Shown here: one piece after another, positions 24,380 through 60,600 of the stretch | How the letters are laid out: the number at the start of each line of letters is the position of its first letter | How positions within the stretch are numbered: the first letter of the stretch is position 1 | Origin: Bactericera cockerelli | Taxonomy: Eukaryota > Arthropoda > Insecta > Hemiptera > Triozidae | Assembly (NCBI GenBank): GCA_024516035.1 | Contig: CM044964.1 | Span: 25,204,867 to 25,268,866, forward strand | DNA length: 64,000 bases | Direction of reading: 5' to 3' | Position numbers and translations under genes: made by a program | The notes under the pieces: generated by a model | Told to the model about the DNA's origin: nothing | Database searches by the model: none | The model's input: only the letters and a program-made list of their open reading frames with translations

Positions 24380-24739
24380 ATGAATCACCCACCCTACCAT
24401 TTAGAGCTACCCCTCTTATCATAATCTTTCGATTCCGCATTGTACATTATGATCTACCCCTCCTCTCATGTTTAATTATTTCCCCTCTTATCACATATCT
24501 ACCACTCCCGTCAAATTAAATTAATTTTCCCTCTTATCACATGATCTACCTCTCCTCTCATGTTGAATAATGCCCCTCTATTCATAACAAGCCCCTACTC
24601 TCTTGTTTGCATTTCCCCTCTCATCATGATCGTCCCCTACCATAGTGTATCATGATCCTTTCCTATCATACCCCCCTCTTCGTAACATGATCTTCCCCTC
24701 CAATCATGAACCTGTTTCGAGTGGACTTCCCCTCCAATC
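24380..24739 (+). repeat. degenerate array of cccctc..atcatgatc motifs ending in a start-codon duplication
   Basis: At least nine cccctc/ccctc blocks are followed by atcatgatct-like words. The last step is clear: 24692-24720 and 24726-24754 are the same 29 bases, offset by 34 bp, and both contain atgaacctgtttcga. The first ATG (24706) is out of frame with the coding ATG (24740). Confidence 0.65.
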
Positions 24740-27700
24740 ATGAACCTGTTTCGACGCACCGCCATCTTCAGTACGTTCGTGGGAACCTGTCTGAGTTTAG
24801 CGCTCCTTGCGGCCGCTCTAGGAACGAAGCACTGGGTGACGGCCACGGCTAAGCGCGGCCAAAATCCGGCCGAGTCTGACGGGCGCGTCCATTTCGGCCT
24901 CTTCCAGGGGGAGAAGTCGCTCAATGTGGGGTACGGGTGGCGGCACTACCAGTTCAGTGGTGAGTTCAAAAATATTGCCAGTTCAAACATTTTGTGGTCT
25001 TAACACATTCGTTACCAAGCCAATTTTTTCAAGTTTTACGTAGGGACCAGGCGGTAAAGTCGCTGTTGCATCCTGGGGACCAAACTTTTTTTTTTGCATA
25101 TTTGGCATTGTATTTGTACAAGAATCGATCCTATATCTGTTCTAATACTAACAACGTACCTCAAAAAAGGCCATATATGGATGTCCGGTCCCTCGTTAAA
25201 ATTTTGATAACAACCACATGTGTGTTTTCGGTCCCAAAGAAAAACACAAAAACATCCACATATGGCCGTTCGGTAACGAACGTGTTAAATTTTGAAGGGA
25301 CCCTCAATTGTGGACCGTTTGATAGTTGGGATTTTGGGACCCATCGAGTGGGGTATTGAACGAGAGATCTCGGTGCCCCGATGTCTGATACGACATTTTC
25401 ATTTCGATTGCAGAATGTGTGTGACGTCTACAGTTCACAGTTTAAATTAAAATATGAAAGTAGTTTTTTTCGAGTTTAGGGTATAGTTTAAACTTTAAAC
25501 TATTAAACAAAACTGTTCTTAAGTGAAATAAGACAGACCAGAGGTGCCGATTTTGTGAGCAAAATTATTCTAGTCAGGTAGGGGAGGTGTGGGACGGTTG
25601 AGACACTGGGAGGGTTGAGACAATCCATTTTGAACCGGTATAATTCCTGATGTGCCCATGATGTGCTTTATTTCTGCAATTCTGCACTTGATGGAATAAA
25701 ATTATTACGTTAAGCTATCTACTTAATATCTCTTGGCCTTGTGAAATTTCAATATGTTATTGATCTTGTCAATCAAACCAATAACTAGTATTACCAGATC
25801 GGTAGATCCAATCAAGCCGAGACATGATTCTCAATGTAATAACCAATTTGACCACTAATCTTTCTAGTTAGCCAATTCTAATTATAATGCTAATGACCTT
25901 GCTCTGAGAAGGCCTTGATTACTTAACGAATGTTTAATCGATGTTAGATATCGATTAGTGTCAGATACCTATGTATTCTATTTATATAACCAGATGTAAT
26001 TGACTTCTGACTTGGTATTCTAGTGATACGCAACCGAACTAGGTTCATAGATTATCCCAATTTGTTATTGGTTGCAACAGTGCAACACAGATTCAAATTT
26101 GTGTAATTTTCTTTGCAGTAGGAAAAACTTTATAATAATAATAATAAAACAACACTCTTTAGTGGAAGGTAACCACCAGGCAAGGTTAATGCTCAAAGCA
26201 TTTTCTACGACCTAACCCTCAGAGTCTTATTATTAATTATGTGATCACAAACTCAAATTAGTGAGAAAAAATTCATGCACAAAAATTCATTCAAACAAAC
26301 GGATCCCTACGGCATCTGGATTACCAGACTAGCGCGTTAACCACTTGACTACAAGTGCACAGTTAATGGTTGCAACACGGTTGAAACTGAGATTTGAGGA
26401 TTTTGAGAGTGGAGAGTGTTTCAGAAACGGGCTACATTTACCTTTTTTTTTCTCTTTCTTTCTTTTTCTTTTTTTAATTGTAAGAATCCTCATAAGTTTG
26501 CGTAAGCTTAGGAGATAATATAAAGAAATATTATTATTGTACAAATAAAAAGAACCATTAAAAAAAAAAGATGAATGTTTCACAGCCTTTTTTATTTCGT
26601 AGCCATGAAACAGGAGCTACTGTAGACGCTTGTGGTCTGTGTTGTAGCCTGCCCATCCCGTAGTATGATGCCCCCCCTCTGATTGGCGAGAAGTGACACA
26701 ATACTTCCCACTTAGGTGCTGGGTCAACACGAGCGCACCGGAAGGTATCCCTTACAAACAATTGTAACCAAATTAAGTGTACAAATTTTTGTCGGCACGG
26801 GGGATTGAACCCGGGACCTTCCGCATGGCAAGCGAGTGCTTAAAAACTGAGCTAATCGCGCGCTCTATTGTAAGAATCCTCAGAAGTTTGCTTAAGCTTA
26901 GGAGATAACATAAAGAAATATTATTACTGTACAAATAAAGAGAACCATATTATTCAATTCAATTCATTTCTCCCCCCCAGTCCTGGACATCATCAAGAAC
27001 GAGCCCGAGTTCCTCTCCTATCCCCTGTGGACGAGTCTGGTGGCTCTTCTCCTCACCTCCATTCTGGTAGCCACTCTCACCGCCATCATCTCCCTCATCA
27101 ACACCTCCACCACGCCCATAGCCGCCCTCTCGGGGATTCCCGGCCTCTATGTATATAACTTTACCTGCGGTAAGTAATAATAATGAATTTAGCTTACCTC
27201 TAAATAAGTTAGAATTAGCTTTAGGGGTAATTATATTGTATCAATAATTTATTATTGTAAATCAAATTAAAAAAAAAATATTGTTTCTCAAATATACATT
27301 TAAATTTACCCTCTTAGTACTTAGAGTACTATGAGGATTATAATAATAATAATAATGCTTTTCTTTGTGTTATTATGTCACAATTTTAGTGGGTAGCGCA
27401 GAATCATAGAAGTTTACCACTTCAATATACAATACGTAAAACGGTAGGGTGGAAGAAATCGCCATAGGCAATAACCCCGCCCTTTAGTTAGGATTTATGT
27501 TTTTATATATTTTCTATTCTTTTTGCATTTTTATTGTACAGGTATATTGTTTCCATTTTTTTTTTCATTGTTAAAATAATTATTTGTATACTGTACATAA
27601 TGTCCATTTATACCTAATAAAGTGTTGTATAATAATAATAATAGCTACATGGAGGGCGACTATCTCATAGAAGGAGTGAGGAAATTTCCTGATTCTGTAC

Positions 27701-30700
27701 AATCACGGTGCGGGCATTGTGTTCTCCTTTTTTTATTATTTTTTTGCCTATGATTCTGCCACTGGTCGCTGCTTCACATCAAATCAGCTACTCATTTTTC
27801 CTCACGAGGTATGAATGGACCCCGAAAATCCCAAGTACAGAGCAGAAAAATTAATGCTCCCCTGGGGATCGAACCCAGGTCACCATGCGTGTAATGCCTA
27901 GCGCGCTAAACCACTCTGCCACGGTGACTGCCTGCGGAAAGTATAAATATCCCAAAAATAACTACCGTTGAGAAGTGGGCAAGGTTCCAGAGCTCCTACC
28001 CAAAAAAAATTGGTAGTGAATATCTTGTTTGTGACCAATTTACCTTGGTTCTAAACCATTTATTTTTATTAAAACCCATTTTCTGAGTTCCTCAGTTTCT
28101 GTTTTAAACTGCCAACTATCCTAAACGTGAAAACGGATATTTTTCATGTCTTTTATTCCACTCGAATATTGTTTTTGAGCTCCTCTGATGTTCACAGTTT
28201 ATTAATGTATATAGACTTTCTCTTTTAGGTAGCCACACAGGAAGAACTCAGGAGCTGATGGAACATTTTCAACATTTTCTTAAATCATAAAATGTCCGTT
28301 TTCACGTTGCTTTTGACATTTTCATGTCTTTGCTCTGGCACATAACCAAAATTATGTAACGAAATTATGTGACGAAATTATGTAACGAAATTATGTAACG
28401 AAATATTAAATTATAAAAAGAGAGAAGAGAAAAAGTATGTGTCATGCGCACAATAACGAAATATTAAATTATAAAAAGAGAGAAGAGAAAAAGTATGTGT
28501 CATGCGCACAATACGAAATTTGGTCAGTTAAGTTTTAGACCTTGAATAGTAAAGATGAAAATGTCCCAATGGTTGCAGACTCGAATGCAAGCGTTTTTTT
28601 ATATTTAAGTATGGTTTGGTAGTTTTCTCAAAATAATTCAAAATACGATTTATATAAAATCTCCAAGCCTTGTAACCTAAACCTTAAAATCAATTTTCAA
28701 TAACATTAATGTATAATAAATATATGATTTTTTTTACATAGGAAGCAAGTACTTTTTGACCACCCTGTACTCTTCTCCCTCCTCAGCGCTCCTGCAAAGC
28801 ATCAGCGTGTGTCTATGGAGTTACCAGTTCTCTCACTCTCTGCGAGGCAATGTGATGAGTGAGGAGGACAGACGCAACCACTGGAGCAGCCAGGACAGAG
28901 CCTCACTGGGGCACTCCTTCTGGTGAGTAGAAGAGAAGAGAAGAGAAGAGAAGAGAAAGGGAAAATAGAAAGAGGAAAAGGAAGAGGAAGAGGGAAAAAA
29001 AGAAGAGGAAGAGAATAACGTGATGAGTCAGGAAGACAGGCGCAACCACTGGAGCAGCCAGGACAGAGCCTCACTGGGGCACTCCTTCTGGTGAGTAGAA
29101 GAGAAGAGAAGAGAAGAGAAGAGAAGAGAAGAGAAGAGAAGAGAAGAGAAGAGAAGAGAAGAGAAGAGAAGAGAAGAGAAGAGAAGAGAAGAGAAGAGAC
29201 GAGAAGAGAAGAGAAGAGAAGAGAAGAGAAGAGAAGAGAAGAGAAGAGAAGAGAAGAGAAGAGAAGAGAAGAGAAGAGAAGAGAAGAGAAGAGAAGAGAG
29301 AGAAGAGAAGAGAAGAGAAGAGAAGAGAAGAGAAGAGAAGAGAAAGAGCAAAAGATAGAGAAAAAGGAAAGAGAAAGAGAAAAGAGGAACAGGAAGAGGA
29401 AGAGAATAACGTGATGAGTGAGGAGGACAGGAGCAACCACTGGAGCGGCCAGGACAGAGCCTCACTAGGCCACTCCTTCTGGTGAGTAAAGAGAAGAAGA
29501 GAAGAGAAGAGAAGAGAAGAGAAGAGAAGAGAAGAGAAGAGAAGAGAAGAGAAGAGAAGAGAAGAAGAGAAAGAAGAGAAGAGAAGAGAAGAGAAGAGAA
29601 GAGAAGAGGAAGAGGAATAGGAAGAGGAAGAGGAAGAGAAAGAGGAAGAGAAAGAGGAAGAGGAAGAGGAAGAGGAAGAGGAAGAGACGAGACGAGACGA
29701 GAAGAGAAGAAGAAAGAGCAAAAGATAGAGAAAAAGGAAAGAGAAAGAGAAAAGAGGAAAAGGAAGAGGAAGAGAATAACGTGATGAGTGAGGAGGACAG
29801 GAGCAACCACTGGCTCAGCCAGGACAGAGCCTCACTAGGTCACTCCTTCTGGTGAGTAGAAGAGAAGAGAAGAGAAGAGAAGAGAAGAGAAGAGAAGAGA
29901 AGAGACGAGACGAGAAGAGACGAGACGAGACGAGACGAGACGAGACGAGACGAGACGAGACGAGACGAGACGAGACGAGACGAGACGAGACGAGACGAGA
30001 CGAGACGAGACGAGACGAGACGAGACGAGACGAGACGAGACGAGACGAGACGAGACGAGACGAGACGAGACGAGACGAGACGAGACGAGACGACGAGACG
30101 AGACGAGACGAGACGAGACAGACGAGACGAGACGAGACGAGACGAGACGAGACGAGACGAGACGAGACGAGACGAGACGAGACGAGACGAGACGAGACGA
30201 GACGAGACGAGACGAGACGAGACGAGACGAGACGAGACGAGACGAGACGAGACGAGACGAGACGAGACGAGACGAGACGAGACGAGACGAGACGAGACGA
30301 GACGAGACGAGACGAGACGAGACGAGACGAGACGAGACGAGACGAGACGAGACGAGACGAGACGAGACGAGACGAGACGAGACGAGACGAGACGAGACGA
30401 GACGAGAAGAGAAGAGAAGAGAAGAGAAGAGAAGAGAAGAGAAGAGAAGAAAGAAAGAGAAGAAAGAAAAAAGAGAAGAGAAGAAAAAGAGAAGAGAAAG
30501 GGAAAATAGAAAGAGGAAAAGGAAGAGGAAGAGGGAAAAAAAAGAAGGAAGAGAATAACGTGATGAGTCAGGAAGACAGGCGCAACCACTGGAGTAGCCA
30601 GGACAGAGCCTCACTAGGCCACTCCTTCTGGTGAGTAGGAGAGAAGAGAAGAGGAAGAGGAAGAGGAAGAGGAAGAGGAAGAGGAAGGGGAAGAGGAAGA

Positions 30701-31407
30701 GGAAGAGGAAGAGGAAGAGGAAGAGGAAGAGGAAGAGGAAGAGGAAGAGGAAGAGGAAGAGGAAGAGGAAGAGGAAGAGGAAGAGGAAGAGGAAGAGGAA
30801 GAGGAAGAGGAGGAGGAAGAGGAAGAGGGAGAAAAGAGAAGAAGAGAAGAGAAGGAATAACGCGATGAGTCAGGAGGACAAGCGCAACCACTGGTGTAAC
30901 GAAGACAGAGAGAAGAAGAGAAAAGAGAGAAAATTTCCTGTCTGACCATCGGGCTTTGCATTGTGGAATGATTGAGGGGAAATCATCGGTTGGGTGGAAG
31001 AGCTCACAGTGTGAGAATCCTGCTGTTAAAGCCATAAAAAAAGAGAAAGAGGAGGGAAGAAGAGAAGAGCTTTTCCTCTTCCTCTTTTCTCTTCTCTTCA
31101 GTACAGCACCACTCCTTTTAGTTATGTGAAAAGAAGAGAGAAGAGAAAGAGGAGGGAAGAAGAGAAAAATAAGATCTGATTTACAGAGATGAAAAGAATA
31201 TTGATTTTTTTAAGGCATTATATTTATTATACTTGTAGTTAACAAAATAATAATAATGAACTTTCCATTTCCTCCACCAGGTTCGTAGTAGTGGCGGCGT
31301 GTCTGCACATCATCAACATGTGTATTCTCTACTACGGCACTGCAGACAGGAACAAGACTAAGTCCAGTGGCGACGAGAAACCCAATGGCGCCATTATGCT
31401 GTACTGA
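24740..31407 (+). CDS. clarin/claudin-like four-pass membrane protein, complete (copy 1)
   Basis: There are four exons: 24740-24959, 26981-27169, 28787-28922 and 31281-31407. All introns are GT-AG and the phases join cleanly into 223 codons plus TGA. Four hydrophobic segments are visible at about residues 8-29, 91-113, 129-149 and 183-201. An extracellular loop follows the first (HWVTATAKRG, GLFQGEKS, GYGWRHY), and GIPGLYVYNF lies just before the third. This layout and the loop motifs fit the clarin branch of the claudin/PMP22 superfamily, which acts at the plasma membrane; the clarin assignment is family inference. The short cytoplasmic tail ends NGAIMLY. Exon 3's end with its donor, exon 4's end with its stop, and the start codon are all tandemly duplicated. 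The ATG at 24740 was chosen because it opens directly into the first membrane segment. Confidence 0.82.
24960..26139. other. clarin intron 1, first part; nothing further seen
   Basis: Unique-looking intron sequence matches 62770-63825 in reverse. No further gene is visible. Confidence 0.6.
26140..26365 (-). mobile_element. SINE family A in clarin intron 1
   Basis: A reversed complete copy. The same insertion is in arm 2 (62540-62765), so it predates the split of the arms. Confidence 0.75.
26575..26865 (-). mobile_element. SINE family F in clarin intron 1
   Basis: Full head and body on the - strand. It is flanked by two similar segments of about 90 bp (26478-26560 and 26868-26960, both with taagaatcctca and cttaggagataa), so the neighbourhood is duplicated around it. 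Confidence 0.75.
27447..27640 (+). mobile_element. retroposon family K, arm 1 only
   Basis: It runs from gggtggaagaaatcgccata to a taataaagtg and aataata tail. The corresponding place in arm 2 (about 60985-61000) reads straight across the insertion point, so this is an arm-1-specific insertion in clarin intron 2. Confidence 0.7.
27745..27935 (-). mobile_element. SINE family D in clarin intron 2
   Basis: A reversed complete copy (cctcacgaggtatgaatgg, gggatcgaacccaggtcacc). It is also present in arm 2 at 60515-60720. Confidence 0.75.
28330..28520. repeat. short tandem repeats in clarin intron 2
   Basis: Four gaaattatgtaac units (28365-28405) are followed by a 60-65-bp direct duplication containing aaaagagagaagagaaaaag and catgcgcacaata. 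Confidence 0.8.
28600..28767. mobile_element. MITE end abutting the clarin exon 3 acceptor
   Basis: The terminus tttttgaccaccctg followed by TA (28768-28769) matches the MITE at 18330-18507. Only about 17 bp (cttctccctcctcag) separate it from exon 3. The outer end is not clear in this arm; arm 2 shows both ends (59327-59741). Confidence 0.55.
29905..30405 (+). repeat. (GAGAC)n array, about 100 units
   Basis: About 500 bp of nearly perfect gagac pentamers are bordered by gagaa pentamers on both sides. Only two short slips (about 30090 and 30118) break the pattern. Confidence 0.95.
30631..30860 (+). repeat. (GGAAGA)n array
   Basis: About 30 hexamers follow the donor copy at 30631. The same hexamer dominates the arm-2 array at 58290-59030. 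Confidence 0.92.
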
Positions 31408-31752
31408 ACCACCTTTGAAACCAAATGGCGCCATTATGCTGTAATGAATCACCTTTGTAACCAAATGGCGCCATTATGCTGTACTGAACCACCTTTGTAA
31501 CCAAATGGCGCCATTATGCTGTACTGAACCATCTTTGAAACCAAATGGGGCCATTATGCTGTACCTACTGAACCATCTTTGAAACCAAATGGCGCCATTA
31601 TGCTGTACTGAACCAAATTTCAAACCAAATGGCGCCATTATGCTCTACTGAACCATCTTTGAAACCAAATGGCGCCATTATGCTGTACTGAACCACTTTT
31701 GAAACCAAATGGGGCCATTATGCTGTACTGAAACACCTTTGAAACCAAATGG
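31372..31752 (+). repeat. 40-bp tandem repeat from the clarin C-terminal codons and stop, about 9 copies
   Basis: The unit contains aaatggcgccattatgctg, tactgaaccac and ctttgaaacc. The first copy is the real 3' coding end (NGAIMLY and TGA). The others form the start of the 3'UTR. Arm 2 has about 29 copies. Confidence 0.93.
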
Positions 31753-31782
31753 CAGTACAATATACTATAAATCTTTTTGTAA

Positions 31783-31788
31783 AATAAA
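31783..31788 (+). terminator. candidate polyadenylation signal of clarin
   Basis: An AATAAA hexamer lies 376 bp after the stop, just beyond the 40-bp array. A second possible signal is the aataaattatc at about 32090. Confidence 0.4.
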
Positions 31789-31859
31789 AATCAAAAACTT
31801 GATTGACAAAATATATGTACAATCAAATGGCTAATTTTACTATCGTTTAAGTTCATTTA

Positions 31860-32522
31860 ACTGAAGGGCGGGGTTATTGCCTATGCTATGGCAATCTCTT
31901 TTCATTTTAATTCAACAGCTCGAGACGGGGGGTTTCACCCTCCATTCCCAGGTAATTCACAAACTTGCTACCCACATTACCCTATTGTTTGTAGATAAGT
32001 GTTAGGTATTAAGTAGTCCTAATTAATAACAGATGTAATATTATTCTACTTGTATGACTGTGAATACAATAACTCAATATTTTTGTAATAAATTATCTTT
32101 GTAAATGAATATTGCGTTCTTTTCCTTTCTCTCTTCTCCTTATTTTACTGTTTACCGGTAATAAGATGGTTTTTCAGATACAAATATAATCTATCTATAC
32201 TAAACGTACCTATTATGTAAATAAAACTACAACTTTAGTTGTGATACTGTTCATAATAATAATCTATCTAGCTGAATAAACCTGGATACCTATAGGAGCA
32301 AGGACTCTGATTGTTAAGTCTTATCTGTAAATAAATATCATTTAAAAAAAACCTGGATATAATAAGAGAACTGGAGAGGTATAAGAGAAACCTGGATATA
32401 AGAGAAAATTTTCCAGGTCAAATTCAACTCTATTCAAGGGAAAATACCTAAACTTTTTATAAGAGAAACCTGCATAGTTATAAGAGAAAAACATCCGATC
32501 CCTAGAGTTCTCTTATAAGTTA
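31860..32522. other. intergenic; fragments of family K and 5S-SINE body
   Basis: A reversed family-K fragment (gggcggggttattgcctatg) is at 31865-31910 and a body fragment (ccctccattcccagg) at 31930-31985. The rest is AT-rich and matches arm 2 in reverse (55900-56400). Confidence 0.5.
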
Positions 32523-32690
32523 TCATATTTTTGTGACAGTTACTTTCGTGAATACCTAACCATTAAGGTGATGTCACATCTATTCAAACTCGCTTTACTA
32601 ATATATCTTTGCTGAACTTGGGACTTCAGCCACCGACCTCCAGGCCACAAGTTCGCCGAATTCTCGACCAAGCTAAGCTACTAAGGTGGG
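32523..32690 (-). mobile_element. SINE family C, diverged
   Basis: A reversed copy with cttgggacttcagccaccga. The arm-2 equivalent is at 55706-55885. Confidence 0.65.
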
Positions 32691-33277
32691 TATAAATAAT
32701 AATGTCAGCCCAAACTCTTAAATGGTAACACTTGGCGAAAAGTTGAAAAAAATCGACCCTACCTAAAATTGATCACGCTAGATACTAGAAGGGTGGTATG
32801 CAGAGTCCTCACTGTAGGGATGACTGGGTCATTTGTCCCTTCAGCTGATTTTGTTATGCAGAGACGTTTGTTTGAAGCGCCTGTGCGCATGCGCATTCAT
32901 ATGTTTCTTGAGAGAATAATTGTCAAGGTCGAAGTATTCCCTATAGCAAACTCGGGACCACCTTACAGTGAATCCTATAGGGATAAAAAAAAACATCTGT
33001 GCATACCAGCCTAAAAATAAATCATTTGATGTAAGGACTCTCAAGTGTTAGAGACCTCTCTTTACATTCATAAAATAATATTCATTAAAAAAAAAGAAAT
33101 CCAGACAAAAAGATTCGCCCGCATCCATCAGTCTGGCCATGCCTCAGCTAACTAGCACATCAGTAGTCGATTTATTTTTCGCTTATTTGGCCTGTACTAT
33201 ACCTCAATACCTAGTCAGATAGAGACACAGATTTGAGAGTGTCTATCTCTCTAGCTCTAGAGAAAGTTAAGGTTAGT

Positions 33278-33425
33278 TAAGTTATCATATTTGTGTTAAT
33301 CACTGTCGTGATATCACAACTACTCAAACTCGTTTTACTAAATCTACACTGAAATCGGGACTTGAACCACCGACCTCCAGGTTTCAAGTCCGCCGCCTTA
33401 TCCATCAAGGTACTGAGGTCGGTTA
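33278..33425 (-). mobile_element. SINE family C
   Basis: A reversed copy with atcgggacttgaaccaccga. The arm-2 equivalent is at 53668-53810. Confidence 0.7.
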
Positions 33426-34162
33426 GCTCTAGAGAGAGAAAGATCCCACTCACTGATTGCAACATTTGTCTCGATCCGTTGTGCAATATTCCATGCTCTA
33501 CTCTTATTGTATGATCAAATGAAGCCTGGATCCCACTATGCACAACATTTTGTTGCGCAACGTTTCATACTCCACTCTTTCTTCAGGATCAAATGAGATC
33601 GAACACCACTGACTTCGATACGCTCTGCAACACTTCCCATGTTTGCAGTTCAAGACAAAATGTTGCGCAAGGTTGCGAGACAAAATGGCCTATTTTCTCA
33701 TTGAATTTCTCTCCGTCTCCCGTGTGCTCTTTCCCATACCTACCTGTAATTATTATTTGATTACTTTTTCAAATAAAATTGGCGGTAAATAATACAGGAC
33801 TTCCTAATTTGAACTTTATTCGAAAGGGACTTTCTAAATTTGCGAATAAAGAGGCAGTTTAGAAAAGGCTCGTTTACAACAGTGGGGCGTTTGTGTATAT
33901 ATTACGAATTCAGAAAAAACTGAGAGATTTTATTCCTCTCTAGGTTTGCTAGAATATTATCTTGTTTTAAATAAATAATGCAAGTTTGAAGGTTCATTAT
34001 TCAAATTAAAATAAATCTTTACTTTGTAGCTAGCAAAATGCATTTCATTCTCCGAAACTGCTGAAAGAATTTTCCGGCAACACCGCAATATCTTTATCTT
34101 GCGTCTCTTTATCTCTTATCAGTGGTATGGTTTGTTTACAATCAAATTATCTTATCACTGGA
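33426..34162. other. intergenic / 5' flank of PLPBP
   Basis: Imperfect repeats of gcaacattttgttgcgcaac are present at about 33540-33680. No gene is seen. The corresponding arm-2 region holds a MITE that is absent here. Confidence 0.5.
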
Positions 34163-35340
34163 ATGATTTTACGGACGGTGGTCACAAGAGCTTTTAACAT
34201 GGAAGTGGCTGTCAAAGGAACCTTGGAGAGAATACAGCAAGCTTGTGCTAGAAGACCAAAGGTATGTTCTCTGGGATTTGATTGATTTGGGGTTATTGTT
34301 AAGGTCATATATTTTTCATCAGTACCTAATCCATTTAGGGTATCTAGTCGGTTTTGGACAGAGTTATCCATAATTGGGGATAAAACACCCCCCCCCCCCC
34401 CTTAATTTGAGTTTAGCGCCACTGCTAATCTTTGATTATTATTATTATTATACAAGAACCAAATATTAAAAGTGTCACATTCTTTAAAAAGATAAAGCAC
34501 AATTTTTAGTGGGTAGCATAGACATTACGAGAACTAATGCTAATGCATCATATCTCCAATCAACCATCACTGTCCAATATCAATCTCCCAATGCCACCAG
34601 TGGCTATTGCCTACATTACAAATAACACAAGTCAGGGATAAGATTAGACAAGGAACATATTAGGTACAGAGTGGGAAAAATTCTGACCCCACTGGGATTT
34701 GAACCTGGGTCACCTGGAGTGCAAGTCGAGCATGCTTCTACTAGTCAGAGGTGACTAAACTGTTGGCATAATGGGACTACCTGTCTTGCGCTGACAGTCT
34801 AAATAAAGCACTACTTATACTTATACTTATTATTGCTTGACTTTGATGATCATACATTAACTAGTATAATTATATATTATTATTAAATATGACCAACCTT
34901 GGTAGATTGATTGTAACCTGGAGGTTGGTGGTTCAAGTCCAATTTCAGCGTAGATTTTTAGAAAAGTGAGTTTGATTAATTGTGATATCACAAAAGTGAT
35001 TAACACAAATACAATAAATTTTCTTTTTTATTACATATGCCATGAATACTGGACATTCTTTATCAGTAACTGGAATCATTGTAATCACTTTTTACACTGA
35101 GACTTGTATTAAAAGTGTGCTTGTATTATCACTAAATTTATCAATTGTATTTTTTTTTTTAATTTCCATAAATTGTTTGATTATCCTGTATTTTAGGATT
35201 TACAATATTCACATCCAAGGCTTGTGGCTGTCAGTAAAACAAAACCTAAGGAAGCAATCTTACAGGCGTACAATGCTGGACAGAGACATTTTGGGGAGAA
35301 TTATGTGCAGGAGTTGCTGGAGAAAGGACATGATCCAGAG
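34163..35340 (+). CDS. PLPBP: PLPBP (PROSC/YggS family) exons 1-2, gene incomplete (copy 1)
   Basis: Exon 1 (34163-34261, 33 codons) and exon 2 (35197-35340, 48 codons) are joined by a phase-0 GT-AG intron. The protein reads [14 protein letters not shown], then [17 protein letters not shown] and [12 protein letters not shown]. These match the N-terminus of pyridoxal-phosphate homeostasis protein, which binds PLP as a Schiff base and helps supply and buffer the cofactor. The lysine in LVAVSK is the expected PLP-binding residue. The family has about 230-280 residues; here only 81 codons are present, although a good donor (gtaaga) follows exon 2. No later exon is visible before the oppositely oriented CoA-transferase gene begins. 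The start could also be the second ATG, at codon 13. Confidence 0.85.
34590..34770 (-). mobile_element. SINE, diverged family D, in the PLPBP intron
   Basis: The reversed head gggatttgaacctgggtcac and the body tgccaccagtggctattgcc are related to family D. The arm-2 equivalent is at 51195-51380. Confidence 0.6.
34893..35020 (+). mobile_element. SINE family C in the PLPBP intron
   Basis: Truncated copy: taacctggaggttggtggtt, ttgtgatatcacaaaagtg. The arm-2 equivalent is at 51025-51160. Confidence 0.65.
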
Positions 35341-35476
35341 GTAAGAACAAAATATGGTGCTGGAAACGGGTGCTATGTTTTTTCTTTCACCTAAAACCTA
35401 ATAAGAAAAATAGGTTTATTTTAAAAAGTCACAGAAGATGTTAACTTCCTTAAGGCTAGAGCCTAGTTGACTGTCA

Positions 35477-35638
35477 TGGGGTGATGGGTAAAAGACCGGA
35501 CAGAATTACAAATGTAGCTTGGGAAAGAGGTCGTTTTCTAGTTTGGGATGTGACATGTGTGAACTCAATGGCAAAACTGTCTTTAAATACTAGGTCAGTA
35601 CCAGGGTACCCAGTAGAAAGTACTAATATATGAAAAGA
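35477..35638 (+). pseudogene. non-LTR retrotransposon ORF fragment
   Basis: An open frame reads GKRPDRITNVAWERGRF, then LVWDVTCVNS, then TGA. It matches the same domain as 49715-49929 (GKRPDGITLVPW, LVWDCTCVDTLAPS). A related C-terminal piece at 61499-61777 carries a poly-A tail and target duplication, so the family is a LINE. The copy is shared with arm 2. Confidence 0.55.
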
Positions 35639-35979
35639 TTTAAAAAATATAGCAGTATCCCAAAACCATCACTTTTATTGCCCTTACAGTGGAGACCCTA
35701 GGGCCATGGTCTACTGACAATATAACAATTTTCTATATAAAAAAATGGGTGATTCTATTACTTTCCTTATTATAGGATAAGGAAAGTAAAAATTGCTTTG
35801 GCAACTCGGCAAGGAAATAGTGCAAGCCTGTTGGGATCTTTGCACTCCACCTCCTTTCTGGAGGAATTTTTGTTTATTTATAATTGAAATAGGTATGTAA
35901 ATAAAAAAAGCTCAAAACATAAATATAAAAAAGTCTGTCAATGAATTATTTTATTTTTTCCTCTTGACTATATTATGCT

Positions 35980-36330: not shown

Positions 36331-38134
36331 ACACATGTCAATTTTATCTCAAGCACAAGTCATCCAACAGTTCATAGACCTTATTTTATAATTTAATTAT
36401 TAAATTTATGTACATATTTTATAATAAACAATTACTCTATAGTTAACTATAGTAGAAAAAATGTGCAACGCGATACATCTCAACAAAAAAACAGTTCATA
36501 AACCTCTTTCACCAACCACTTTTTCCTTTGTTCAGAATGAGCTAGTCTAACACAACCCTCCGCTGACCACCCACAAACACATTCAAGTACCCACAGAGCT
36601 ACGCCCACACATCTCAATGGTATCTCAACTTTCTTGAGGAGATAATCCCCCCAAATTTTAAGAAAACCCTGAAAAAGTACGCAATTCAGCTCTCATTTGC
36701 GTCTAGCTACTAGAAAGCTAGCGTCTAGGAACCATCGACCTCCAGGTCACAAGTCGGGCATCTAATTGATCTAGGTACTGAGATCGGTCACGATGGCTAC
36801 TTTCTCAAGCACAACGTAATACGACAGACGCGACGTTCCCTTTGTTCAGGATGGGCGAGTTGTATCAACTCATAGAGACTGTATTCTTCTTCTTTTACTC
36901 TGTCTTATCCCACTTAAGCAGGGTCGACGTTGTTCAACCTCATGGTTGAATTTGGTTGGTTTTGGCACATTTTTACGGCTGGATGCCCTTCCTAACGCCA
37001 ACAATTCTACTTAAATTAACGTCCTAGATTCGGACGGGGGTTTTACCCTCCATTCGCTAGGAATCGTACCAGCTACCCACATTCACCTCACCCAGCCTGG
37101 GTAGGGCCGGAATTGCCAGCCTCACGTGTTCGGAGGGAACAGAATTTTCTGTGCGAAAAGTCTACTCCGACCGGGGATCGAACTCAGGATCTCTGGACTA
37201 CGGGCAGTAGTCACAACCGTTACGCCACGGAGGCTGGCATCATAAATACTGTATTAGCCGCCCAGAAACACATTCAAGTGCCCACAGGGCTATGTCCACA
37301 CATCTCTTAAGCACAAGGCATTACACCCAACAGTTCATACGCTTCTTTCTCCAGCTGTTCCCTGTGTTCAGGATGGGCGAGTTGTATCAACTCATAGAGG
37401 CTGTATTAGCCGCCCAAAAACACATTCAAGTGCCCACAGGCCACGCCGACAAATCTCTTAAGCACAAGGCATTACACCCAACAGGTCATACGCTTCTTTC
37501 TCTAGCTGTTCCCTATGCTCAGGATGGGCGAGTTTTATCAACTCATAGAGACTGTATTAGCCACCCAAAAACACATTCAAGCGCCCACACATCTCTTAAG
37601 CACAAGGCATTACACCCAACAGTTCATACGCTTCTTTCTCCAGCTGTTCCCTATGTTCAGGATAGGAGAGTTGTATCAACTCATAGAGCCTGTATTAGCC
37701 ACCCAAAAACACATTCAAGTGCCCACACATCTCTTACGCACAAGGCATTACACCCAACAGTTCATACGCTTCTTTCTCCAGCTGTTCTCTATGTTCAGGA
37801 TGGGCGAGTTTTATCAACTCATAGAGCCTGTATTAGCCACCCAAAAACACATTCAAGCGCCCACACATCTCTTAAGCACAAGGCATTACACCCAACAGGT
37901 CATACGCTTCTTTCTCCAGCTGTTCCCGATGCTCAGGATGGGCGAGTTTTATCAACTCATAGAGCCTGTATTAGCAACCCAAAAACACATTCAAGTACCC
38001 ACACATCTCTTAAGCACAAGGCATTACACCCAAAAGTTCATACGCTTCTTTCTCCAGCTGCTCCCTATGCTCAGGATGGGCGAGTCTGATCAACTCATAC
38101 GCCCTCTGCCGGGTGCTACGCCCAGACACATCTC
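36330..38134 (-). repeat. 138-bp tandem array from the CoA-transferase C-terminus, stop and 3'UTR
   Basis: The stop-codon block (tctcttaagcacaaggc) recurs at 37303, 37454, 37592, 37730, 37868, 38006 and 38131; four consecutive steps are exactly 138 bp. Most units keep, on the - strand, about 30 C-terminal codons (YELIKLAHPEHREQLEKE, LLGVMPCA) and the stop. More distant copies at about 36330, 36480 and 36790 are strongly decayed. A 265-codon + strand open frame is just the antisense of this 46-codon period. Confidence 0.9.
36885..37245 (-). mobile_element. SINE family G inserted in the 138-bp array
   Basis: The longest family-G copy in the window: a 3' part (cttaagcagggtcgacgttg, tttttacggctggatgccc), the shared body, and the tRNA-like head ending at ccgttacgccacggagg. 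Confidence 0.75.
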
Positions 38135-44100: not shown

Positions 44101-46319
44101 GGGACTATAAACAGGGAGTAGACCAGCATTGGCTTGGTTCTGGGCCCTTGTCAATTATTAGCCTCCTTGTAAAGACAGTGGTAAAAGTTCTGAGTCATTC
44201 CTCCACTGTCTGGCTACCATCGTTCACGATGACGCCACCAATGATGATGATTATTGACTTAAAAATAGAAAATAGTACACATTCGAGTTTGTATTTTCAT
44301 GACAAGAACTAAATACATTCTTCCCCAATGCTAAACTTTTCTAATCTTCTTCTTCTTTTACTCTGTCGTATCTCGCTTAAGCAGGGTCGACGTTGTTCAA
44401 CCTCATGGTTGAGGTTGGTTGGTTTCGGCACATTTTTACGGCTGGATGCCCTTCCTAACGCCAACGATTCTATTTGATTTAACGTTCTGAATCAGGACGG
44501 GGGTGTTACCCTCCATTCGCTGGGAATCGTACCAGCTACCCACATTAACCTCACCCAGCCTGGGTAGGGCCGGAAATTCCAGCCTCACTTTTCTAATGAT
44601 AATCATAAAATACGCCTGTTGTCCAGTAGTCTCACCATGTCCAAGTTATATTTCGGCGGGGTTTCGAACCCGCGACCTCTGTATTACCAGACCGACGCCA
44701 TCCCGACGCCTTGCCATCTGAGCTAGCGGATTCTCATTCCAGACAACTTTCTCACAATCCACAAATCTCCCCTCCAACTGCACTCTGACTGGGTTATTTG
44801 GGCAAACACCACTTCTGATTAGATTACTTTAACGAGATTTGACAGTTGAAAGGGAGATTTGGGGATTTTAAGAGTGGAGAGTACTTTCTGGAACGAGACT
44901 CGGTACTGATAATAATAATACCAACAACATCAACAACGACGACACTCTTCAGTGGAAGGTAACCACCAGGCGAGGCGAATGCTCAAAGCATTTTCTACTA
45001 CCTAACCCTCAAAGTCTTATTATTATGTGGTCAGACTATCAAATTAATGAGAAAAAATTCATGCACTGGGTGGTATTTGAACCAACGAAACCAAAGGCAA
45101 TAACCTTTAGTTAGGACATATATTATGTATATATTTATTTATTTTTTATCTGTGTTGTATATATAATCCCCCAAAATATATAATATGTCCAACTAATGAC
45201 TTGTTAAATAATAATAATCCTTACTCTACTTGGATTACCAGACCAGCGAGTTTACCACCTTCAGCACAATTTTTTTTTATCTTTTGAAGGTGGGTATACC
45301 CTCATTGTTTGTTGAAGATGTTATTGTGAAATATAAATACATGGAAACTTTAAAAAAAAAAAATAATAAGCTTACCCAGTCCTATCTGCAGGGTTGCTTC
45401 GTCTTCCACAAGCTCCTCACAGATCAGTTTTGCGATGGTTCTATCCAAGTCTGTCACAGGCTCACTCACTGTTGACATAGCACAGAAGAGTTTGTATCAA
45501 GCAATTAATTAATAGCTAACAGCCGTATTTATGAACAGAAAACGCAGTTTGAGCATGGTCTGAAGCATGATTTCCTTTAATATTATTGGCCAATACGTTG
45601 CTTGAGACAGTGCTCAGACAAAATTCGCTGTTCATAAATACGGGTGTGAGACACTCATACCTCGTGAGGAATATTGAGACAATATAGCCGCATTTTTCTT
45701 TCTAACCAAAGTGAACCAAACGGGAATAAAATGAACTAAACTGGAAGCAAGTCATTTTTCTTTTGGAAGAGGAAAAATTTCCTCTTCCAAAGTTAACCAA
45801 AATGGAAGTAGAAAAATCTTGCTTCCAGTTCTTTTATAGGTTAAATCCATTGTTTATTTTTAATAGTACCGAAACGCATTTTTCTTTCACGAATGTGGTG
45901 AAGTTGACCTTGGAAATAAATGGAAATATCGAACCTGGGATTTTTTTTTATCCAAAAGAAAATTAGGCCTTATGATAACTTATTTTGTGTTTTAATTTTT
46001 TTTTTTTTCGTAATGTTTGAGCACGCTTTTATTTTCTTGTCTCTGCATCACTATCGTTTTTTTTTTTTTTTTTTTTTTTTTTTTGCGTTATTAAGGTCAA
46101 GTTCACCGAGTTGCTATATGATAAGTGAAATGTTTGACGAGTAATTAGCACCTTACGATGCGGGCCCCATATAAGGGTTCAGGTTCATAAATTATGGGCT
46201 AGGGCCCCCCATATAAGGGCAATCAGTCTGGCACGTAAGTTACATGTTATCAGACAAGCTGAGGTGCAACAAACGATAATAATTTAATCTTGTTTGATGA
46301 TATATTTCCGTGCTAAATT

Positions 46320-49929: not shown

Positions 49930-50029
49930 NNNNNNNNNNNNNNNNNNNNNNNNNNNNNNNNNNNNNNNNNNNNNNNNNNNNNNNNNNNNNNNNNNNNNNN
50001 NNNNNNNNNNNNNNNNNNNNNNNNNNNNN
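49930..50029. other. 100-base assembly gap
   Basis: Exactly 100 N, the usual placeholder for a scaffold gap of unknown size. The inverted arm 2 begins at the very next base. Confidence 0.99.
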
Positions 50030-50578: not shown

Positions 50579-50694
50579 GCCTTAAGGAAGTTAACATCTT
50601 CTGTGACTTTTTAAAATAAACCTATTTTTCTTATTAGGTTTTAGGTGAAAGAAAAAACATAGCACCCGTTTCCAGCACCATATTTTGTTCTTAC

Positions 50695-53622: not shown

Positions 53623-53667
53623 AAATGTTGCAATCAGTGAGACCTTTCTTTCTCTAGAGCTAACCGA

Positions 53668-53810: not shown

Positions 53811-53961
53811 TAACCTTAACTTTCTCTAGAGCTAGAGAGATAGATACTCTCAAATCTATGTCTCTATCTGACTAGGTATTTAGATATAGTACAGGCCAAA
53901 TTAGAGAAAAAAGACCTTGAGATCGACTGCTGATGTGCTAGTTAGCTGAGGCATGGCCATA

Positions 53962-55264
53962 CGTAGGTAGATCAATAAGTACCCGTGTTTAGGGACATGT
54001 TACATCATTGGTGAAACTTGGTGAAACTTGTTGATACTTGTTGATGGAACGACATCTCAAATGACCACATCCAAAGTTTGAAACTGATTACTCTCTTAGT
54101 TTTCATTTATCGGTCACTTGAAGTTGTTGTGTTGCGTATAGTTGAGTGATATGGAAAAAGAACAGTACCGAGCAGTTATTCGATTCCTTTTTTTGGACGG
54201 GAAAAAATGTGATGAGATAAAATTAAAGTTAGATGCTGTGTACGGGAGCTCTTCACCTTCTATGACCACTGTTCGCTTTTGGTTTAATGAATTTAAACGA
54301 GGGCGCACAAGCATTTTTGACGAGGACCGCCCAGGACGCCCAGAAGACGTGTGTACCGAGGAAGTCGTGGAAAAAGTGCATGATATGATTCTCAAAGATC
54401 GCCGAACAAAAGTGCGTGAAGTAGCTGAGAGTGTGGGCATTTCATATGGAACTGTTTTTAAAATCCTTCATGATAAGCTGGGCATGAGAAAACTATCGGC
54501 GCGATGGGTGCCGCGATTGCTCACAATTGACAACAAACGAATTCGGCTGAATTGTTCAAAGGCTAGTTTAGAACTCTTCAATCGCAATCCAGATGATTTT
54601 TTGCGTCAAGTTGTGACCGTTGATGAAACCTGGATACATCACTATACCCCAGAAACCAAACAGCAGTCAAAAGAATGGACTTTGGTTGGAGAATCTGCCC
54701 CAAAGAAGGCGAAATCGGTCCAATCGACCGGAAAAGTCATGGCTACCGTTTTTTGGGATGCAAAGGGAATTATTCTTATTGACTTCTTGGAAAAAGGAAA
54801 AACAATAACTGCTGCATATTATAGTGAGTTATTGACACGATTTGATGCGAAATTGAAGGAGACACGCCCCCATTTGGCGAGAAAGAAAGTCTTGTTTCAC
54901 CATGACAATGCACCAGCTCACTCATCTGGAATTGTTACTGCTAAAATCCATCAACTTGGATACGAATTATTGCCACACCCACCTTACTCACCTGACCTAG
55001 CCCCCTGCGATTATTTTTTGTTTCCTAACTTGAAAGTTTGGCTCGGTGGAAAGAGGTTCAGCTCAAATGATGACGTCATAAGCCAGACAAAGGGCTATTT
55101 TGAGGAGTTCGAAGGGAGCTACTTTTTGGAAGGGCTAAAAAAGTGGCAGGATCGCTGGAAGAAGTATGTAGCCTTGAAAGGAGACTACGTCGAAAAATAG
55201 AACCCAAAAATGTAAGTATCTCGCACTCTTTTTTCAAACACGGGTACTTCTTGATCCGCCCTCG
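53962..55264 (+). mobile_element. full-length mariner transposon, arm 2 only
   Basis: 1303 bp lie between TA dinucleotides (53960-53961 and 55265-55266). The inverted repeats are about 29 bp and match at 24 positions, with atcaa.aagtacccgtgttt common to both. Arm 1 has an empty site (ggccagactgatgg in the same sense) at about 33130. Confidence 0.93.
54151..55200 (+). CDS. mariner transposase, intact, 349 aa
   Basis: Cut-and-paste transposase acting on the flanking inverted repeats. The N-terminal half holds two helix-turn-helix regions (about 1-50 and 85-112), and the WVPRLL linker is at about 119-124. The catalytic triad is D158 (VDETWIHHY), D252 (HHDNAPAH) and D287 (PDLAPCDYF). Thirty-four residues between the last two give the D,D34D signature of mariner. 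YSPDLAP is present. The length is normal for the family (about 345-350), and there is no stop or frameshift. Wording such as FWDAKG, LEKGKT and TPE..QS.EW looks like the irritans (Himar) group. The first ATG of the frame is 54151; an upstream in-frame TTG is unlikely to be used. Confidence 0.95.
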   Translation: MEKEQYRAVIRFLFLDGKKCDEIKLKLDAVYGSSSPSMTTVRFWFNEFKRGRTSIFDEDRPGRPEDVCTEEVVEKVHDMILKDRRTKVREVAESVGISYGTVFKILHDKLGMRKLSARWVPRLLTIDNKRIRLNCSKASLELFNRNPDDFLRQVVTVDETWIHHYTPETKQQSKEWTLVGESAPKKAKSVQSTGKVMATVFWDAKGIILIDFLEKGKTITAAYYSELLTRFDAKLKETRPHLARKKVLFHHDNAPAHSSGIVTAKIHQLGYELLPHPPYSPDLAPCDYFLFPNLKVWLGGKRFSSNDDVISQTKGYFEEFEGSYFLEGLKKWQDRWKKYVALKGDYVEK

Positions 55265-55705
55265 TACTGATGGATGCGGGTGAACCTTTTTGTCTGGATT
55301 TCTTTTTTTTTTAAATGAATATTTTATTCGCGTAAAAAGAGGTCTCTAACACTTGAGAGTCCTTGCATCAAATGATTTATTTTTAGGCTGGTATGCAGAG
55401 ATATTTTTTTTATCCCTATAGGGTTCACTGTAAGGTGGTCCCGAGTTTGCTATAGGGAATACTTCGACCTTGACAGTTACTCTCACAAGAGACATATGAA
55501 TGCGCATGCGCACAGGCGCTTCAAAAAAACGTCTCTGCATAACAAAATCAGCTGAAGGGACAAATGACCCAGGCATCCCTACAGTGAGGACTCTGCATAC
55601 CACCCTTCTAGTATCTAGCGTGATCAATTTTAGGTAGGGTCGATTTTTTTCAACTTTTCGCCAAGTGTTACCATTTAAGAGTTTGGGCTGACATTATTTT
55701 ATACC

Positions 55706-55885
55706 CACCTTAGTAGCTTAGCTTGGTCGAGAATGCGGCGAACTTGTGACCTGGAGGTCGGTGGTTCAAGTCCCAAGTTCAGCAAAGATATATTAGTAAA
55801 GTGAGTTTGAATAGATGTGACATAACCTTAATCGTTATTAGGTATCCACGAAAGTAATTGTCACAAAAATATGATAACTTATAAG
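55706..55885 (+). mobile_element. SINE family C, diverged (arm 2)
   Basis: Counterpart of 32523-32690: ccttagtagcttagcttggt, ggtcggtggttcaagtccc. Confidence 0.65.
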
Positions 55886-56499
55886 TGAACTCTAGGGACC
55901 GGATGTTTTTCTCTTATAACTATGCAGGTTTCTCTTATAAAAAGTTTAGGTATTTTCCTTTGAAGAGAGTTGAATTTGACCTGGAAATTTTTATTTCTAT
56001 TATACCTTTCCAGTTCTCTTATTATATCCAGGTTTATTCAGCTGTACCTATAGATATTATTTATATCTGAAAAACCATCTTTTTACCGGTTAACAGTAAA
56101 ATAAGGAGAAGAGAGAAAGAAAAAGAACGCAATATTCATTTACAAAGATAATTTATTACAAAAATATTGAGTTATTGTATTCACAGTCATACAAGTAGAA
56201 TAATATTACAACTGTTATTAATTAGGACTACTTAATACCTAACACTTATCTACAAACAATAGGGTAATGTGGGTAGCAAGTTTGTGAGTTACCTGGGAAT
56301 GGAGGGTGAATCCCCCCCCTCGCGCTGTTGTATTAAAATGAAAAAAGATTGCCATAGCATAGGCAATAACCCCGCCATTCAGTTAAATGAACTTAAATGA
56401 CAGTAACATTAGCCATTTGATTGTACATAATATTATATTTTGTCAATCAAGTTTTTGATTTTTATTTTACAAAAAGATACATAGTATAATGTACTGCCA

Positions 56500-57660
56500 T
56501 TTGGTTTCAAAGGTGGTTCAGTACAGCATAATGGCGCCATTTGGTTACAAAAGTGGTTCATTACAACATAATGGCCCTATTTGGTTACAAAAGTGGTTCA
56601 TTACAACATAATGGCCCTATTTGGTTACAAAGGTGGTTCAGTACAGCATAATGGTCCCATTTGGTTTCAAAGGTGGTTCAGTACAGCATAATGGCGCCAT
56701 TTGGTTTCAAAGGTGGTTTAGTACAGCATAATGGTCCCATTTGGTTACAAAGGTGGTTCAGTACAGCGTAATGGCCCCATTTGGTTTCAAAGTTGGTTCA
56801 GTACAGCATAATTACGCCATTTGGTTACAAAGGTGATTCATTACAGCATAATGGCGCCATTTGGTTTCAATGGTGGTTCAGTACAGCATAATGGCCCCAT
56901 TTGGTTACAAAGGTGGTTCAGAACAGCATAATGGCCCCATTTGGTTTCAAAAGTGGTTCAGTACAGCATAATGGCCCCATTTGGTTTCAAAGGTGGTTCA
57001 GTACAGCATGATGGCCCTATTTGGTTAAAAAGGTGGTTCAGTACAGCATAATGGCGCCATTTGGTTTCTAACGTGGTTCAGTAGAACATAATGGCGCCAT
57101 GAGGTTACAAAGGTGGTTCAGTACAGCATAATGGCGCCATTTGGTTACAAAGTTGGTTCAGTACAGCATAATGGCGCCATTTGGTTTCAAAGGTGGTTCA
57201 GTACAGCATAATGGCGCCATTTGGTCTCAAAGGTGGTTCAGTACAGCATAATGGCGCCATTTGGTCTCAAAGGTGGTTCAGTACAGCATAATGGCGCCAT
57301 TTGGTTACGAAGGTGGTTCAGTACAGCATAATGGCCCCATTTGGTTTCAAAGATGGTTCAGTACAGCATAATGGCGCCATTTGGTTTCAAAGATGGTTCA
57401 GTAGAATATAATGGCGCCATTAGGTTACAAAAGTGGTTCAGTAGAACATAATGGCGCCATTAGGTTACAAAGGTGGTTCAGTACAGCCTAATGCACCATT
57501 TGATTTCAAAAGTGGTTCAGTACAGCATAATGACGCCATTTGGTTTCAAAGGTGGTTCAGTACAGCATAATGTCGCCATTTGGTTACAAAGGTGATTCAG
57601 TACAGCATAATGGCGCCATTTCGTCTCAAAGGTGGTTCAGTACAGCATAATGGCGCCATT
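56500..57660 (-). repeat. 40-bp tandem repeat from the clarin C-terminus and stop, about 29 copies
   Basis: Same unit as 31372-31752 read in reverse (aaggtggttcagtacagc, ataatggcgccatttgg). Copies differ by single bases such as ggcgcc, ggcccc or ggtccc. It is about three times longer than in arm 1. Confidence 0.93.
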
Positions 57661-60600
57661 TGGTTTCTCATCGCCACTGGACTTTGTTTTGTTCCTGTCT
57701 GCAGTGCCGTAGTAGAGAATACACATGTTGATGATGTGCAGACACGCAGCGACTACTACGAACCTGGACGGAGGAAATGGAAAGTTCATTATTATTATTA
57801 TTTTGCTAACTACGAGTATAATGCCTTAAAAAAAACAATATCCTTTTCATCTCTGTTTAATCAAATCAGATCTTATTCTTCTCTTCTTCCCTTCTATTTC
57901 TCTTCTCTCTTCTTTTCACATAATAAAAGAAGTGGTGAGTTGAAGAGAAGAGAAACAAGGAAGAGGAAAAGCTCTTCTCTCTTCTCTTCTTCCCTCCTCT
58001 TTCTCTTTTTTTTATGGCTTTAACAGCAGGATTCTCACCCTGTGAGCTCTTCCACCCAACCGATGATTTCCCCTCAATCATTCCACAATGCAAAGCCCGA
58101 TGGTCAGACAGGAAATTTTCTCTCTTTTCTCTTCTTCTCTCTGTCTTCGTTACACCAGTGTTGCGCTTGTCTCCTACTCATCGCGTTATTCCTTCTCTTC
58201 TCTCTCTTCTTCTCTTCTCTTCTCTCTTCTCTTCTCTTCTCTTCTTCTCTTCTCTTCTCTTCTTCTCTTCTCTCCTCTTCTTCTCTTCTCTCTTCCTCTT
58301 TCCTCTTCCTCTCCTTCCTCTTCCTCTTCTCTTCTCTCCTCTTCCTCTTCCTCTTCCTCTTTCTCTCTTCCTCTTCCTCTTCCTCTTCCTCTTCCTCTTC
58401 CTCTTCCTCTTCCTCTTCCTCTTCCTCTTCCTCTTCCTCTTCCTCTTCCTCTTCCTCTTCCTCTTCTCTTCCTCTTCCTCTTCCTCTTCCTCTTCCTCTT
58501 CCTCTTTCCTCTTCCTCTTCCTCTTCCTCTTCCTCTTCCTCTTCCTCTTCCTCTTCCTCTTCCTCTTCCTCTTCCTCTTCCTCTTCCTCTTCTCTTCCTC
58601 TTCCTCTTCCTCTTCCTCTTCCTCTTCCTCTTCCTCTTCCTCTTCCTCTTCCTCTTCCTCTTCCTCTTCCTCTTCCTCTTTCCTCTTCCTCTTCCTCTTC
58701 CTCTTCCTCTTCCTCTTCCTCTTCCTCTTCCTCTTCCTCTTCCTCTTCTCTTCCTCTTCCTCTTCCTTTTCCCTCTTCCTCTTCCTCTTCCTCTTCCTCT
58801 TTCCTCTTCCTCTTCCTCTTCCTCTTCCTCTTCCTCTTCCTCTTCCTCTTCCTCTTCCTCTTCCTCTTCTTCTCTTCCTCTTCCTTCCCTTCTCTTCCTC
58901 TTCCTCTTCCTCTCCTCTCCTCTTCCTCTTCCTCTTCCTCTTCCTCTTCTCTTCCTCTTCCTCTTCTCTCTCTTCCTCTTCCTCTTCCTCTTCCTCTTCC
59001 TCTTCTCTTCTCTTCTCTTCTCTTCTACTCACCAGAAGGAGTGGCCTAGTGAGGCTGTGACCTGGCTGCTCCAGTGGTTGCTCCTGTCCTCTTCACTCAT
59101 TACATTATTCTCTTACTCTTTCTTTTCCTCTTTGTTATATCTCTTATTCTCTTCTCTTTTCTCTTACTCACCAGAAGGAGTGGCCTAGTGAGGCTCTATC
59201 CTGGCTGCTCCAGTGGTTGCGCCTGTCCTCTTGACTCATGACGTTACCTCGCAGAGAGTGAGAGAACTGGTAACTCCATAGACACACGCTGATGCTTTGC
59301 AGGAGCGCTGAGGAGGGAGAAGAGTACAGGGTGGTCAAAAAGTACTTTTCCTATGTAAAAAAAAATATATAGTTATTATACAATAATGTTATTGAAAATT
59401 GATTTTAAGCTTTAAGTTACAAGGCTTGGAGATTTTATATAAATCCTATTTTGAATTATTTTGAGAAAACTACCAAACCATACTTAAAAGGCAACGTGAA
59501 AACGGACATTTTATGATTTAAGAAAATGTTCCATCAGCTCCTGAGTTCTTCCTGTGTGGCTACCTAAAGGAGAAAGTCTATATTAATAAACTGCGAACAT
59601 CAGAGGACATAACTTTTCACACACTACGTAAAAAATCTCCATAAAAACTACTGTCTTTTGAAATTTAATTTAATGTTTTCTGTCATATTGATCAAAAGTT
59701 ATTAAATATTTACATAGGAAATGTACTTTTGGACCATCTTCTATTAGCTGTATAAGTAAAGAACAAAGAGTTTTAAGGTTCAAAAATATCTTCGAACTTG
59801 GCCAGTTTAGGGCTCTAGTTTGGTTGTCTGGAGAATTCTGGAAAAATGTGTATAAGTAGTGCTTTATTTTAACTGTCAGCGCAAGACAGGTAGTCCCATT
59901 ATGCCAACAGTTTAACAAAACACCTCTTTATTTATTTGAGTATAGATACAATTTGTTTTAGATTTGATAGAATTTGAGTGTATACACGCATGAACACAAA
60001 TTTAACCTCTAACTTAGCCAGTTTATGGCTCTAGTTTGGTTGTCTGGAATATTCTGGAAAAATATGGTATACGCATGAACACAAAATTAACCTCTAACTT
60101 GACCAATTTATGGCTCTACTTTGGTTGTCTGGAATATTTTGGAAAAATGTGTATACGCATGAACACAAATTTAACCTCTAACTTGACCAGTTTATGGCTC
60201 TAGTTTGGTTGTTTGGAATATTCTCGAAAAATGTGTAGGTATACATAAACAAAAATTCAACCACCAAAAGGAGTAAAACTAGACAAGTTAGAGAAACTCA
60301 GAAAATGGCAGTATAATACACAATACACAGTTGGCAGTATAATACACAAACTGAGAAACTCAGAAAATGGGTTTTAATCCAGAGAAATTGTTTAGAACCA
60401 AGGTAAATTGGCCGCAAACAAGATATCACTGCCTTCATTGGCGAAACATTTTGGATAGGAGCTCTAAAACTTCGCCCTCCTCTCAACAGTAATTATTTTT
60501 GGGATATTTATACTTTCCGCAGGTAGTCACCGTAGCAGAGTGAGTTAGCGCGCTAGGCATTGCACGCATGGTGACCTGGGTTCGATCCCCAGCGGAGCAG

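Follow-up and report, generated by a model that had tools for sequence, protein, structure and literature searches.

How do the ends of exons, together with their splice donors or stop codons, come to be repeated in tandem beside two unrelated genes? The question is raised by a 64,000-nucleotide stretch of the psyllid Bactericera cockerelli (GenBank assembly GCA_024516035.1, contig CM044964.1, positions 25,204,867 to 25,268,866 of the forward strand; the window), in which exon edges of a clarin gene and of a CoA-transferase gene coincide with repeat arrays (Table 1). We conclude that these arrays are very probably exon-edge minisatellites of the kind known from lancelets as 'mirages', seeded by a duplication spanning the edge and then expanded. 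The structures are real, the mechanism ordinary and the kind a known one; the host group is new as far as our literature search reaches.

To locate repeats at exon edges, we used an ungapped self-comparison with a score threshold of at least 50 (the maximum in one shuffle preserving local composition was 47). By this strict count, tandem units span five of the 26 annotated coding-exon edges, namely the clarin start, donor 3 and stop and the CoA-transferase donor E and stop F. Sorted by type, these are two of ten donors, two of three stops and one of two starts, with none of the 11 acceptors; clarin acceptor 3 was scored at its uncorrected position (28742), and no listed repeat locus extends to the corrected one (28787). 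Counting exon D, discussed below, five of the six cases lie at 3' edges, a lean that is not significant (p = 0.22). A BLAST-based edge scan was dropped after catching only 3-4 of the 26 edges, the exon-3 and short cases being lost by extension or masking. The original prediction, that exon edges had been amplified repeatedly in both genes, thus stands for five edges, the duplicated start among them, and is weak for exon D.

Both gene models have uninterrupted frames and match insect relatives where the authentic edges fall. The clarin gene (+ strand, 24740-31407) has four exons encoding 223 residues with a match to the Pfam family Clarin-2; its best named relative comes from another psyllid, Cyamophila willieti (66%), and two other proteins rank higher. 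Its third acceptor was moved from 28742 to 28787, giving the 223-residue product, because the relatives do not have the 15 residues concerned. The CoA-transferase gene (- strand, 49647-38135) has six exons encoding 345 residues to the stop and matches AcetylCoA_hyd_C in Pfam. The predicted protein is 73% identical to a relative from the psyllid Cacopsylla melanoneura, and exons further upstream are absent before the 100-N gap at 49930-50029.

In the clarin gene, the repeated start leaves two ATG codons, of which the second opens the clarin frame and the first, out of frame with it, opens an unrelated short one. The exon-3 unit, about 81-84 bp long with a first offset of 168, comprises the last 77 bp of the exon and the GTGAGTA donor. 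Its authentic copy at 28846 is followed by full copies at 29017, 29408, 29778 and 30557 and a partial copy at 30859. At the stop, the 40-bp unit encodes the conserved NGAIMLY-type tail, which is present in seven of eight aligned relatives.

The largest array belongs to CoA-transferase exon E, where each 55-bp unit consists of 37 bp of exon end, a GTACGT donor (array consensus) and 12 bp of intron. Part of it (~39850-40100) is ragged with many deletions and resembles poor consensus sequence, so the copy number is uncertain there. Exon D is a different matter: it has one old, degenerate duplicate, identical at 105 of 143 columns in a gapped alignment, and the description 'amplified with its donor' fits it only weakly, since the ungapped match does not span the donor (score 0) and the GTAAGT of the copy is displaced by a few bases. 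All five aligned relatives of the CoA-transferase share its end residues. Within exon F, the gene encodes TEYGRTELCGRS where the five aligned relatives carry a GIA-x-LF(G/A)K-type motif, a change lying immediately upstream of, and at the beginning of, the repeat part. That the units derive from different exons and differ in length supports separate events, as originally proposed.

Table 1 Exons, edge arrays and the second clarin locus copy in the window. Positions are those of the window; 'relatives' marks features for which insect relatives were compared.
Feature	Position	Strand	Support or remark
Clarin exon 1 (coding)	24740-24959	+	relatives
Clarin exon 2	26981-27169	+	relatives
Clarin exon 3	28787-28922	+	final 77 bp within repeat unit
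Clarin exon 4 with stop	31281-31407	+	relatives
Duplicated clarin start	24706-24768	+	29-bp repeat at offset 34, ATG at 24706 and 24740
Array of exon-3 end and GTGAGTA donor	28846-30910	+	set in purine microsatellite
40-bp array, 9.3 copies	31377-31753	+	unit = last coding codons, stop and untranslated region (UTR)
CoA-transferase exon A	49647-49463	-	no edge repeat found
CoA-transferase exon B	48793-48697	-	no edge repeat found
CoA-transferase exon C	45468-45376	-	no edge repeat found
CoA-transferase exon D	43693-43937	-	relatives
CoA-transferase exon E	42069-42228	-	relatives
CoA-transferase exon F with stop	38135-38394	-	relatives
Single degenerate copy of exon D end	43511-43640	-	authentic counterpart 43664-43805
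55-bp array, 56.8 copies	39031-42104	-	exon E end and GTACGT donor
Array of exon F end, stop and downstream sequence	37296-38249	-	138-bp unit (125 bp beside exon), 5.7 copies
Inverted second copy of 24785-35974	64000 down to 50035	-	begins beside 100-N gap 49930-50029
40-bp array of inverted clarin copy, 29.3 copies	56496-57667	-	
Exon-3-end array of inverted clarin copy	58139-59248	-	

Such structures have precedents. Lancelet mirages are minisatellite-like repeats across exon-intron boundaries, described in Adh3 and in the globins BflGb6 and BflGb9 (PMC3087553). Their units measure 10-160 bp, occur in several genes and carry splice signals in many copies, boundary copies escape homogenisation, BflGb6 has two haplotypes with 6 and 3 units, and boundary arrays are proposed as raw material for new introns. 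Further mirages are reported in PGBD5 and troponin C (PMC3902484). The psyllid arrays are alike in that units span the exon-intron boundary (clarin donor 3 and donor E; exon D by gapped alignment only), the authentic exon stands intact beside the array with a continuous frame matching relatives, and copies carry splice signals (GTGAGTA, GTACGT). They differ in their insect host, in a copy number that reaches about 57, and in affecting stop/UTR and start edges as well, which extends the definition. Mirages also occur at both 5' and 3' boundaries in lancelets, whereas none of the 11 psyllid acceptors is hit.

In humans, the 31-bp variable number tandem repeat (VNTR) of CBS, c.1444_1467+7(16_21), by its notation joins 24 nt of exon end to the first 7 of the intron in 16-21 copies (PMC2630376). 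The clarin exon 3 and exon E units likewise amplify an exon end with its donor, although copy variation is seen for clarin only, and the CBS repeat concerns one gene and one shorter unit. The 844_845ins68 allele of CBS, a single 68-bp duplicate that is removed by splicing, lies on the acceptor side (the text of the same paper says 'donor'), and so differs from the psyllid arrays both in its edge and in having one duplicate only. Human paralogues with variable internal tandem repeats at exon-intron boundaries share the boundary location; new introns and alternative splicing have been connected with those repeats (PMC2812944), a link reported for the human cases. Given the published structures in lancelets and in CBS, a 'splicing oddity of this genome', as had been suggested, is an unneeded assumption.

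In the mirage-type explanation, a short tandem duplication across an exon edge would act as the seed, and slippage, unequal exchange and conversion would expand and homogenise the unit into the adjoining intron or UTR. By tandem geometry, the exon body would keep its link to a single copy, which is the first at a donor or stop and the last at a start codon. That copy would presumably still supply the normal edge, with the remaining copies in spliced-out or untranslated sequence, so that the change would be nearly neutral. In exons 3, E and D, reading that continues beyond the first donor soon runs into a stop; splicing at a later donor would thus be expected to do harm, and the first donor is likely the one used. 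On this sequence evidence, the authentic edges are likely the ones in use. The earlier argument, that one working copy remains when a duplication crosses an edge, is in line with these data, as the exon body joins one copy, read-through stops and the relatives end at the same residues. We infer the mode of growth, the near-neutrality and, below, the cause of any excess at edges.

If instead the arrays functioned in splicing or expression, with purine tracts and decoy donors steering exon choice, their signals might be kept across copies. GTGAGTA is indeed retained in all seven full exon-3 copies (both locus copies, two authentic ones included), and GAA-rich tracts can serve as splicing enhancers. 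In the 55-bp array, however, the donor is not outstanding for substitutions per site (0.017, against 0.016 in the exon part and 0.032 in the intron part), deletions per site are 0.017, 0.043 and 0.023, respectively, and a comparison across its copies gave no clear sign of extra donor conservation. Copy numbers also vary widely, and the lancelet Adh3 and globin data suggest no interference with splicing (PMC3087553). We therefore regard such a function as very unlikely.

The clarin/PROSC-like locus is present in the window a second time, in inverted orientation. Compared with the first copy, the coding sequence of this inverted copy differs at two of 175 sites in exon 1 and one of 189 in exon 2, and most long non-coding blocks share 87-93% identity. 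Its exon-3 ends comprise an authentic copy (59248-59165), a full copy (59106-59026) and a partial copy (58187-58139), and the distant partial copy is common to both locus copies. The first and inverted copies have 6 and 3 exon-3 ends and 9.3 and 29.3 40-bp units, respectively; together with the shared far partial copy, the 6 versus 3 ends resemble the haplotypes and boundary copies of lancelet BflGb6. The inverted copy probably represents a contig of the other haplotype that was inserted backwards, a false duplication; a genuine inverted (palindromic) duplication is a possible alternative, and the two copies may be alleles or paralogues. Because it carries the same two clarin arrays at other copy numbers, it counts as evidence of instability and adds no independent edges. 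The range first proposed, 24692-59307, includes a portion at 56496-59307 that belongs to the inverted copy and contributes no independent edge. We also note that the dominant motifs of the purine/pyrimidine microsatellites in clarin intron 3 differ between the two copies (28930-30860, GAGAC and GAAGA; 58195-59025, GAAGAG). An inverted copy adjoining a 100-N gap, like the ragged stretch in the 55-bp array, could be taken to mean that the arrays are an assembly artefact. We consider this highly improbable, as array copies carry differing substitutions and two arrays are found in both locus copies at different copy numbers.

The two clarin copies further allowed the repeated exon ends to be compared with the rest of the coding sequence. 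In exon 3, 9 of 77 sites differ in the repeat part and none of 59 elsewhere (p = 0.005); one of the differences changes the protein (E to Q), and for six of the eight tabulated differences the exon base of the inverted copy is also present in an array copy. This pattern would fit a process in which the array converts the exon end. Pooling the exons gives 10 of 108 differing sites in repeat parts and 8 of 519 outside (p = 0.0002). Faster protein divergence of array-encoded parts was looked for against Cacopsylla in exons D, E and F and not clearly found, identities in the repeat part and the rest being 24/38 and 31/44 (D), 9/12 and 38/41 (E) and 25/38 and 31/48 (F).

Are exon edges hit more often than chance allows? 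We collapsed each array to one unit and placed the units at random, never entirely within an exon, in 20000 trials. Against five edge-crossing loci seen strictly, or six with exon D, 0.47 were expected from 17 loci and 0.83 from the 11 loci of the annotated part. These two tests left out small Tandem Repeats Finder (TRF) arrays below the ungapped threshold; restoring small arrays gave 0.57 (30 loci) and 0.93 (18 loci, annotated part), a slightly weaker excess. Weighting placement by GC content raised the expectations of 0.47, 0.83, 0.93 and 0.57 to 0.62, 1.12, 1.27 and 0.75. Across the tests, the probability of at least five crossings ranged from 0/20000 to 0.005 and that of at least six from 0/20000 to 0.0004. 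Microsatellite-like loci (47613, 48518 and the purine tracts) were left out, as were loci with copies more than ~250 bp apart, which we read as dispersed repeats.

Several points weigh against reading these results as a preference for edges or as a rewriting of exon ends. Measured against raw array coverage, edges are not in excess: scores of at least 50 occur at 14.6% of unmasked positions, which predicts ~3.8 of 26 edges where five are seen, although this background is inflated because the expanded copies themselves count in it. The placement tests were devised post hoc, use a hand-compiled list of loci and concern one window chosen for this feature, and the scored edges exclude any upstream of 24277, where exons are unannotated. 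As for divergence, clarin exon 4 has no array-linked excess (1/31 versus 5/96), the pooled test is driven by exon 3 and takes sites as independent, and bases common to exon and array may reflect old polymorphism instead of conversion.

An excess, if real, would have to come from mutational bias, from arrays lasting longer when anchored on a selected master copy, or from the choice of window. The account first offered, in which selection removes repeats inside exons, cannot lift edges above the intronic background and leaves the excess unexplained. Mutational bias would make the exon edges of this lineage hot spots of tandem duplication, for example through transcription-linked breakage or repair. 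Five to six crossing loci among 11 or 18 in the annotated part speak for it; but the data come from one selected window, raw coverage shows no excess, and an equal excess would be expected if exon-anchored arrays persisted longer, so we think such hot spots unlikely. Chance combined with window selection, in which random tandem duplications simply fell on several edges here, addresses the excess only and is compatible with the mirage-type explanation. An insect genome holds thousands of such windows, a round figure, and over that many a probability of up to 0.005 for at least five crossings in one window is not rare; the raw-coverage comparison points the same way. Six cases within 35 kb, and similar structures in several lancelet genes, which hint at a general tendency, argue against it, and we hold it to be a tentative possibility. 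Under the mirage-type explanation, exon-seeded arrays would keep a selected master copy and may thereby outlast purely intronic arrays and remain recognisable for a longer time; longer persistence and window choice may together account for the apparent excess. It is doubtful, in our view, that in the psyllid lineage exon edges are preferred genome-wide for tandem amplification and, at the same time, conversion by arrays keeps rewriting exon ends. On that reading, coding sequence carried in an array would outpace the remainder of its exon severalfold, with most of the changes silent.

No insect case of exon-boundary minisatellites was found in the literature by titles and abstract openings, which is weak evidence of absence. 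The possible additions of this work are the insect case itself and an exon-3 end that differs between locus copies only within the array. The window suggests that exon-boundary minisatellites exist in an insect too, at stop and start edges besides donors and in up to about 57 copies. If arrays overwrite exon ends, coding sequence would change fast and silently at these places, which would call for caution when selection is tested from rates. The ideas about new introns and exon overwriting could both become testable in a psyllid genome that carries such arrays.

Other features of the window include a + strand gene upstream of clarin, whose final exon was placed at 24277-24365 by eye (acceptor, frame open to the stop); a 45-bp array begins 84 bp past its stop. 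At 34199-35340 lies a putative PROSC/YggS-type gene, with no Pfam family matching its 69 residues. The same 38-bp minisatellite unit forms separate arrays at 20648-20762 and 43974-44125, and is probably carried by a dispersed element. Finally, a Mos1-like mariner (53960-55265; open reading frame 54151-55200, + strand) with an open 349-residue transposase frame is present in the inverted locus copy only, and the first copy has the empty site near 33133.

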